Shown: piece by piece, positions 8,829 through 61,143 of the stretch
Numbering within the stretch: the first letter of the stretch is position 1
Layout: every line of letters begins with the position of its first letter
DNA from: Longimicrobium sp.
Lineage (GTDB): Bacteria; Gemmatimonadota; Gemmatimonadetes; Longimicrobiales; Longimicrobiaceae
Reading direction: 5' to 3'
Assembly (NCBI RefSeq): GCF_035474595.1
Contig: NZ_DATIND010000098.1
Coordinates: forward strand, 1 to 64,000
DNA length: 64,000 nucleotides
Program-made: the position numbers and the translations under genes
The notes under the pieces: model-generated
The model's database searches: none
What the model was told of the DNA's origin: nothing
What the model saw: only the letters and a program-made list of their open reading frames with translations

Positions 8829-9122
8829 CGTCATCCTGAGTCGGACACCGCGCTGCGCGCGACCACAGAGGATGAAAGTCGGGCGCCCAGAATAACACAA
8901 TCTGGACTGACTTTCTATTCAGGCCGGCCACGCATCCACCGGATCTACACAGAACGTTGCAGGCCGAAGGATCTATAAGCGCGGCCGCACGTCAGCCGGA
9001 GGGAACGCACGGAGCCATCGGCGCGGTGCCGCCGCTCACGTGCTCAGCGGGCAATAGATCCTTCGGCCTGCCGTCATCGGTGCGACGGCACTTCGGTCGT
9101 GGCCGGCCTCAGGATGACGTCT
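8829..9122. repeat. Facing pair of family C elements between mnmE and yidC
   Basis: The 8778-9222 gap has no convincing gene. It begins with GACGTCATCCTGAG (8829) and reaches GCAGGCCGAAGGATCTATA (about 8959-8977). An inverted copy runs from AGATCCTTCGGCCTGC (about 9057) to GGCCTCAGGATGACGTC (9121). The left copy is longer and more diverged. The two could fold into a long hairpin. Confidence 0.8.
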
Positions 9123-19451: not shown

Positions 19452-19530
19452 GAAGTGCGCCGGCTGGCCCCTCACCGGTGGCTGAAGCCGCAGCAACAAC
19501 TACGGGAAGCCTCGCAAACCGCGCGAGGCT
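19452..19530 (+). repeat. Two-hairpin repeat element (family B), copy 1
   Basis: Stem GGCT-GA-AGCC, linker GCAGCAACAACTACGG, then hairpin AGCCTCGC...GCGAGGCT. Similarity to the copy at 30511-30590 extends about 25 bp upstream (AAGTGCGC, GGCTGGC, CCTCACCGG). It lies in the gap between the VirJ-like gene and a small ORF. Confidence 0.8.
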
Positions 19531-22668: not shown

Positions 22669-22820
22669 GGATCTCACGCGGAGACGCGGAGTCGCGGAGA
22701 ACTCATCTCCATCTCCCGCTTCTTCTCTACTCCGCGACTCTCCACGCGAGGCGGGGCGCCGCGGAGACGCGGGGGTGGTGAACACCGGACCTCCGCGACT
22801 CCGCGTCTCCGCGTGAGATC
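22669..22820. repeat. Inverted repeat with perfect 30-bp arms (family D) inside the two-component operon
   Basis: The arms at about 22670-22699 and 22791-22820 are exact reverse complements, made of GATCTCACGCGGAGACGCGG and its extension. Further CGCGGAGA-like units lie between. It sits between the kinase and regulator genes and would form a very stable RNA stem. Confidence 0.9.
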
Positions 22821-30510: not shown

Positions 30511-30590
30511 AAGTGCGCGGGCTGGCTCCCCTCACCGGCGACTGAAGTCGCAGCAACAACTACGGGAAGCCTCGCAAACTGCGCGAGGCT
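30511..30590 (+). repeat. Two-hairpin repeat element (family B), copy 2
   Basis: First stem GCGACT-GA-AGTCGC, where other copies have GCGGCT-GA-AGCCGC: a compensatory base-pair change. Linker AGCAACAACTACGG, then stem AGCCTCGC/GCGAGGCT. Flanking similarity to copy 1 extends upstream. Confidence 0.85.
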
Positions 30591-31943: not shown

Positions 31944-32249
31944 GAGTGCGAAAGTACGGAAGTACGAGAGTACGAAACAGCTTGCGTGCACTCGGCGGCG
32001 ACGGCTGTTCTCGTGCGGGGGCTGGCCGGGCGAATGAATTCGCGGCAACAACTGCACAAAGTCCGCCTTCGCGGACTCGCGGGGAGGCATTCGCGCGCGG
32101 AGGCGGGCACCGGGCCAATCTGCTCGTCACCCCCGATCCATTTCACACGATCGAGCGCCCCTCCGAGGATGTGGAAGGGCGCTCGGTCAACTTTGGTGCG
32201 AGCCGTGGCCGTATCGTACTCCCGTACTTTTCGTACTTTCGTACTCCTC
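31944..32249. repeat. Octamer tracts bracketing a two-hairpin element (families A and B)
   Basis: GTACGAGA-type octamers (31944-31976) and inverted copies (32216-32249) flank a family B element at 32030-32077: stem GCGAAT-GA-ATTCGC, linker GGCAACAACTGCACAA, hairpin AGTCCGC-CTTC-GCGGACT. The right tract begins at the M23 gene stop codon. Apart from this, the 31795-32248 gap shows no gene. Confidence 0.8.
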
Positions 32250-37426: not shown

Positions 37427-37557
37427 GAAGTACGGGGAGTACGAAAGTACGGGAGTATGGAACTGAAGTGCGGCAGTGCGTGAGTGCGGGAGTGCGCTGG
37501 CTACGCGGACGGTGAATGAATTCACCGGCTACAACTGCACAAAGTCCCTTCGGGACT
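37427..37557. repeat. Octamer tract followed by a two-hairpin element (families A and B)
   Basis: GTACGGGA/GTGCGGGA octamers (37427-37499) start at the histidine-kinase stop codon. A family B element follows at 37511-37557: stem GGTGAAT-GA-ATTCACC, linker GGCTACAACTGCACAA, hairpin AGTCCC-TTC-GGGACT. The order matches that at 31944-32077. Confidence 0.85.
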
Positions 37558-41298: not shown

Positions 41299-41346
41299 CG
41301 GCCCCCCGCCACGGAAGATCCGGAGAGCGATCCCTCACCACCCCAC

Positions 41347-41402
41347 CGGCGGCTGAAGCCGCAGCAACAACTACGGAAAGCCTCGCAAACTGCGCGAGGC
41401 TT
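41347..41402 (+). repeat. Two-hairpin repeat element (family B), copy 3
   Basis: GCGGCT-GA-AGCCGC, linker AGCAACAACTACGGAA, stem AAGCCTCGC/GCGAGGCTT. It lies between the ABC ATPase and solute-binding-protein genes. Confidence 0.88.
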
Positions 41403-41459
41403 CAACTGCGGAACCGCGAGTGCGCGCCCAATCCCGTGCCGCATGGATACCAGCCCGCG

Positions 41460-41506
41460 CTGCAGGCTTCCTCTGGTTGTAGCCGGGGCTTCAGCCACCG
41501 TTTCTT
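41460..41506 (-). repeat. Diverged family B element on the opposite strand
   Basis: On the minus strand: GTGGCT-GA-AGCC, CCGGCTACAACC, then a degenerate hairpin region with AGCCTGCAGCGCGGGCT. Together with copy 3 it forms a facing pair. Confidence 0.6.
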
Positions 41507-60895: not shown

Positions 60896-61089
60896 CAGCC
60901 GCCGCCCCGGGCGGATGCGGATAGCGCACGATCCCGCGGTCGGCGCGGTCTCCCCACAGCACCTCCTCGCACGCCCTGGATGGGGCGCGCCGCCTCCACC
61001 TCGCGGTTCATCCCCCGGCAGCGCCGTAGCACAATCGACCAGGAGGCCGTCGGGCGCAAGGACGCGGAGGCCGCCGCCTCGATCGGAAG

Positions 61090-61143
61090 GCGGCTGAAGC
61101 CGCGGCAACAACCACGGAAAGCCTCGCAAACTGCGCGAGGCTT
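61090..61143 (+). repeat. Two-hairpin repeat element (family B), copy 4
   Basis: GCGGCT-GA-AGCCGC, linker GGCAACAACCACGGAA, stem AAGCCTCGC/GCGAGGCTT. It occupies the gap between the P-type ATPase and multicopper oxidase genes, along with a terminator and octamers. Confidence 0.88.

Follow-up and report, generated by a model that had tools for sequence, protein, structure and literature searches.

What is the short sequence of two hairpins that recurs in the genome of Longimicrobium sp., and, if it is mobile DNA, which enzyme serves it? An initial annotation of the 64,000-nucleotide stretch analysed here (the window) had listed seven copies and had proposed that they are either a structured RNA or a REP-like mobile element. 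All seven are present, and their exact limits could be set, although two of the starts first given were too far upstream, missing the conserved core by about 20 nt. The elements are built in a common order, in which hairpin 1 (6-8 bp, with a GA or GGA loop closed by T-A; the stem is 6 bp in most subfamilies and 8 bp in a few) is followed by the linker GCAACAAC or GCTACAAC (GC(A/T)ACAAC), a spacer of 6-8 nt and hairpin 2, with a stem of 6-8 bp. A subfamily A element occupies 19473..19530 on the plus strand (CACCG-GTGGCT-GA-AGCCGC-A-GCAACAAC-TACGGGA-AGCCTCGC-AAACCGC-GCGAGGCT), and another, the copy singled out in the initial annotation, lies at 30533..30590 (+) and carries GCGACT-GA-AGTCGC. Further plus-strand elements are found at 32029..32077 (hairpin 1 GCGAAT-GA-ATTCGC, hairpin 2 AGTCCGC-CTTC-GCGGACT), at 37511..37557 (hairpin 1 GGTGAAT-GA-ATTCACC, linker GCTACAAC, hairpin 2 AGTCCC-TTC-GGGACT) and at 61089..61142 (hairpin 1 GCGGCT-GA-AGCCGC, hairpin 2 AGCCTCGC-AAACTGC-GCGAGGCT). 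Finally, a subfamily A element of the GCGGCT type at 41344..41401 (+) forms the left half of an inverted dimer, the right half of which is a degenerate element at 41452..41499 (-), with a degenerate hairpin 2.

The window copies belong to a much larger population. Across the genome, the 17-nt core GAATTCGCGGCAACAAC was matched 606 times with at most three mismatches, as compared to 5 times for the reversed pattern, and in 0.85 Mb of the genome, taken as stretches, 89 linkers lay between two hairpins of 5 bp or more, whereas the reversed sequence yielded 5 such places. Four subfamilies dominate: A (CACCG, GCGACT or GCGGCT, GCAACAAC, AGCCTCGC), B (GCGAAT, GCAACAAC, GGCCCGA, AGTCCGC), B' (GCGAAT, CCCCGAAT and others, GCAACAAC, (A/T)GCACAA, AGTCCC) and C (GAAAA, TGC(C/G)A(C/G)T, GCTACAAC, AGTCCGC). 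On the left side, sequence conservation breaks off abruptly before hairpin 1; on the right, it declines gradually beyond hairpin 2. Since the cores within a subfamily are 77-95% identical while their flanks share only 28-30% identity, the copies have been dispersed rather than duplicated together with their surroundings.

The stems had been described as compensatory, and this was borne out when circularity was avoided by choosing 65 copies solely for their linker and hairpin-2 5' arm. In 62/65 of these copies hairpin 1 was perfectly paired over 6 bp, with 12 different arm sequences in use, while re-dealing the hairpin 1 arms in 1000 trials left 14 paired on average and 22 at most. Because MAFFT alignments that mixed both hairpin-2 types misplaced hairpin 2, models were built from single-type sets. 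The covariation is real, and it fits selection on a hairpin that is recognised as single-stranded DNA.

None of 85 copies lies inside a called gene, at 77% coding (gene positions were taken from a simple codon-based gene caller written for this analysis). Gaps between convergent genes are enriched for the element (26/85 copies, 17% expected), gaps between divergent genes are depleted (10/85, 21% expected), and in 66/85 copies hairpin 1 is the one turned towards the nearest gene. A bias of this kind would suit a structured RNA, with the elements acting as 3' UTR stabilisers or transcription terminators that are held in place by selection at the level of the transcript. However, the same 3' bias is known for REPs (PMC3733652), no Rfam family reached its gathering score in a search of the window, and in the listed copies hairpin 2 is not followed by a run of T. 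Nor are the elements conserved in position at the window sites examined: three of them are missing from the syntenic region of the relative G008 (the gaps corresponding to 30533..30590 and 32029..32077 were aligned, and the third was judged by a linker scan of 80 kb), even though the genes beside the compared sites are 75-90% identical, with the intergenic DNA there completely turned over. We therefore regard a structured RNA as very improbable, and the part of the initial proposal that survives is the REP-like mobile element, a reading that is favoured by high copy number, extragenic location, inverted dimers and, as described below, the flanking of Y1 transposase genes and a REP-style tetranucleotide.

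With respect to dimers, an inverted partner was found on the hairpin-2 side in 28/86 copies and on the hairpin-1 side in 2. The partners lie 70-310 nt away, so that the second hairpins point inward, and the same inverted arrangement recurs around tnpA genes and, within the window, at 41344/41452. Turnover was also seen in Planktothrix, where a dimer is present at site L248 in G041 and G061 and is missing, with both flanks kept, in G063, G064, G067 and G069, host DNA at this site being partly lost too; another Planktothrix site differs by one extra partial copy. Among the two G008 window gaps and four Planktothrix sites compared, there was no clean empty site with both junctions exact. At the Planktothrix site L254 (L276, L278, L279, L280), a GAATA microsatellite adjoins hairpin 1 (GCGAATAGAATTCGC) and varies in length between species. 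Hairpin 1 and linker also occur as tandem arrays, both in the Longimicrobium genome itself (G000:C44:143854-143891, 37-nt unit) and in Planktothrix (G041:C1:1223989-1224600, 123-nt spacing), which suggests local amplification in addition to dispersal.

The window holds other repeats as well. Another dispersed repeat, about 75-88 nt in length (GACGTCATCCTGAGGCCGGCC...GCAGGCCGAAGGATC) and frequently arranged as inverted pairs spaced 150-190 nt apart, lies at 8908, 21600(-), 21752(-), 30390, 35432, 35618(-), 37658, 40108, 57847 and 58024(-), and 48 copies of its GGCCGAAGGATC were counted in 0.85 Mb. Intergenic 8-bp tandem repeats, (CACTCNCG)n on either strand, are found at 678, 4715, 33824, 44163, 47836, 61223 and elsewhere, with similar stretches in the syntenic gap of G008. 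In addition, CTCACGCGGAGACGCGGAGA repeats, partly in inverted pairs, are located at 22670, 26499 and 26566; CGCGGAGACGCGGAGA, of this type, has 23 copies in 0.85 Mb.

Turning to the enzyme, a search of the genome with PF01797 (Y1 transposase) identified six genes, one of them interrupted, and all six have at least one flanking copy of the element. Genes with copies on both sides have them in inverted orientation and from a single subfamily, and upstream of one gene there is a second copy. The gene at C46:148725 is flanked by subfamily A, that at C73:8856 by subfamily B, those at C91:105520 and C39:10086, as well as the interrupted copy, by subfamily B', and that at C46:79048 by subfamily C. 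For the C91 gene, the inverted copy on the second side came to light when upstream and downstream flanks were aligned. Identities between the proteins mirror the relationships between element subfamilies (84% for the B' pair, 63-68% for B to B', and 44-51% for A and C); in this genome, gene and element are paired by subfamily. In the subfamily C reading frame at L035 1162-1968 (-), the transposase is followed by a putative addiction-module domain at residues 166-225 (TIGR02574, E 4.8e-14).

The initial annotation had suggested looking for a RAYT-type transposase; a Y1 transposase partner does exist, but it is IS200-like and is not a class 2 RAYT. The three proteins tested score 59.8-78.2 bits with the NCBIfam IS200/IS605 model (cut-off 55), and the fold predicted for the TnpA of a same-genus relative (pLDDT 91) is closest to the TnpA of IS608 and ISDra2 (Z about 15), followed by E. 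coli TnpA-REP 4er8 (Z 12.5). Both results would be in keeping with the elements being internally deleted, MITE-like copies of an ordinary IS200/IS605 insertion sequence, with the tnpA flanks as its left and right ends. The end hairpins of IS200/IS605 elements lie on the same strand, however, whereas the two tnpA flanks here are inverted copies of one element. Moreover, the five intact genes are 44-84% identical, in place of the multiple near-identical copies of an insertion sequence, and the elements outnumber the six genes by about 100:1 and occur as singles. Deleted insertion sequences are thus an unlikely source of the elements.

When the element is read on the opposite strand, the order becomes hairpin 2, spacer, GT(A/T)G, 2 nt and hairpin 1, as the linker (GTTGTTGC or GTTGTAGC on this strand) places GT(A/T)G 2 nt 5' of hairpin 1. 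Cleavage of REPs and of IS200/IS605 elements is guided by a tetranucleotide that precedes the palindrome on its 5' side (PMC8266576). In REPs this tetranucleotide is GT(A/G)G, placed 0-2 nt before the hairpin. The 2-nt offset is nearly constant among loci with a tag. GTTG accounts for 68/86 copies in the Longimicrobium genome and the canonical GTAG for 18/86, while most cyanobacterial loci carry GTAG. In light of this REP-style tag, the elements might be taken for GTAG REPs of the ordinary kind, served by a class 2 RAYT, with hairpin 2 as an accidental neighbour. Yet the class 2 motif Y---NP is present in 0/101 proteins, the REP_Tyr_transpos model of NCBIfam gives 22-30 bits, far below its cut-off of 80, the element flanks every PF01797 gene of the genome, and hairpin 2 covaries across phyla as strongly as hairpin 1. 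This explanation we consider scarcely credible.

The proteins instead carry Y---Q--HH (95/101) and WQ (99/101). Judged by published motifs, rather than by a tree with published references, they would belong to TnpA-Y1 subclass 1.2, with which they share DH(I/V)H, WQ, Y---Q--HH, a length of about 140 aa, low copy number and a common occurrence in Cyanobacteria (PMC6006769). In Quentin et al. 2018, this subclass is placed mainly in Cyanobacteria and Bacteroidetes and has no REP assigned to it (PMC6006769). Because their scan required GTAG or GTGG together with a stem of at least 7 bp (PMC6006769), elements with GTTG and 6-bp stems would have escaped it. In our data, most genes of this type are flanked by double-hairpin elements, and they are also found in Chloroflexi, Gemmatimonadota, Armatimonadota and others. 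We found no earlier description of these elements in the openly accessible literature.

The association between gene and element extends well beyond this genome. Within the taxonomic family, 14/14 genomes with tnpA carry at least 9 elements, compared with 1/7 genomes without it (Fisher p 1.3e-4), and the sole tnpA-negative genome with elements is 72% complete. A scan of named genomes gave 80 tnpA loci in Chloroflexi, Cyanobacteria, Armatimonadota, Planctomycetes, Deltaproteobacteria, Verrucomicrobia, Bacteroidetes and Gemmatimonadetes. When the DNA upstream of each gene was aligned to the reverse complement of the DNA downstream, with a score threshold of 50, a gene's own inverted flanks exceeded this score at 73 of 108 tnpA loci and mismatched pairs did so in 3.6% of cases; the score was missed by 35/108 loci, and Bacteroidota loci were weak. 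The two-hairpin plan is visible in many of the aligned flank segments, an association with tnpA across phyla that a structured RNA would leave unexplained.

The initial annotation had also called for a statistical test of covariation, and the cross-phylum alignment, composed of 29 flanks hand-picked from the flank-alignment list, gave 66 double changes as compared to 18 when shuffled (0/500 as high). In this alignment 98.4% of cells are paired, and slid structures give at most 4 double changes. In a test on unpicked loci, in which the upstream and downstream copies of the same gene were compared at 81 loci and the upstream copy alone was folded, 137 compensatory changes were observed against an expectation of 46 (64 at most). 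Model R2, built from the 29 cross-phylum flanks, had matches in 15/20 named genomes (Cyanobacteria, Chloroflexi, Armatimonadota and Deltaproteobacteria; 12-111 each) and none in the remaining 5/20. The type of tetranucleotide is moderately clustered on the TnpA tree (6 changes against a shuffled mean of 9.4; 2/200 as low).

Several known systems resemble this one. REPs and REPINs with their TnpA-REP (RAYT), that is, REPtrons, likewise comprise hundreds of extragenic hairpin repeats with inverted dimers and a tetranucleotide 5' of the hairpin, along with a low-copy Y1 transposase that is flanked by cognate repeats, and a genome may hold several subfamilies, each with its own gene (PMC2817692, PMC3116915, PMC6006769). 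The present element differs in having two hairpins per unit, with a hairpin 1 of mostly 6 bp, and a GTTG or GTAG tag (CCAG in some relatives), and its transposase has Y---Q--HH instead of Y---NP. IS200/IS605 elements (IS608, ISDra2) share the transposase family and fold and the presence of hairpins beside the gene; here, by contrast, the flanking copies are inverted, non-autonomous elements dominate, and the genes are few and diverse. TIRYT genes are Y1 transposase genes flanked by palindrome-bearing inverted repeats that are long and sometimes double-palindromic, with dispersed copies in some genomes (PMC3733652). Many TIRYT repeats share GGGGWSAS, a difference from the present element (PMC3733652), and Quentin et al. 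put the 26 TIRYTs in subclasses 2.1, 2.2 and 2.5 (PMC6006769).

Taken together, these data indicate that the elements are very probably REP-like, non-autonomous mobile DNA that is mobilised in trans by a cognate IS200-like TnpA-Y1 of subclass 1.2. Because most features that define REPs are present (high-copy, palindromic, extragenic repeats and tnpA genes flanked by inverted cognate elements), while the transposase, although an HUH/Y1 enzyme of IS200 type, is not of class 2 with Y---NP, they are most aptly classed as a REP-like system belonging to subclass 1.2 on the IS200 side; in most subfamilies the stem of hairpin 1 also falls short of the 7-bp minimum applied by Quentin et al. In a mechanism of this kind, TnpA would bind hairpin 1, and perhaps also hairpin 2, in single-stranded DNA and cleave the element at a site set by the adjacent tetranucleotide, as in IS200/IS605 and known REPs, with GT(A/T)G as the putative guide. 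It would then copy or move elements, either singly or as inverted dimers, into other intergenic sites, and the dimer may be the unit of movement.

REP repeats are among the commonest repeats of bacterial genomes. Here, in many phyla, a subclass that had been reported without IS or REP features is accompanied by double-hairpin repeats of its own, which flank its genes and are found in the genomes that carry them. On balance, we favour the view that subclass 1.2 constitutes a second, multi-phylum class of REPtron, in which every gene is paired with a double-hairpin element of its own, the tetranucleotide lying between the two hairpins; REP-type systems would then have arisen from, or persist within, the IS200 side, and these genes would hold an intermediate position between insertion sequences and REP transposases that have become domesticated. 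The four subfamilies within a single genome provide testable enzyme-substrate pairs on the IS200 side, and the system explains a large group of intergenic repeats from cyanobacteria, Chloroflexi and Gemmatimonadota that had lacked an explanation.
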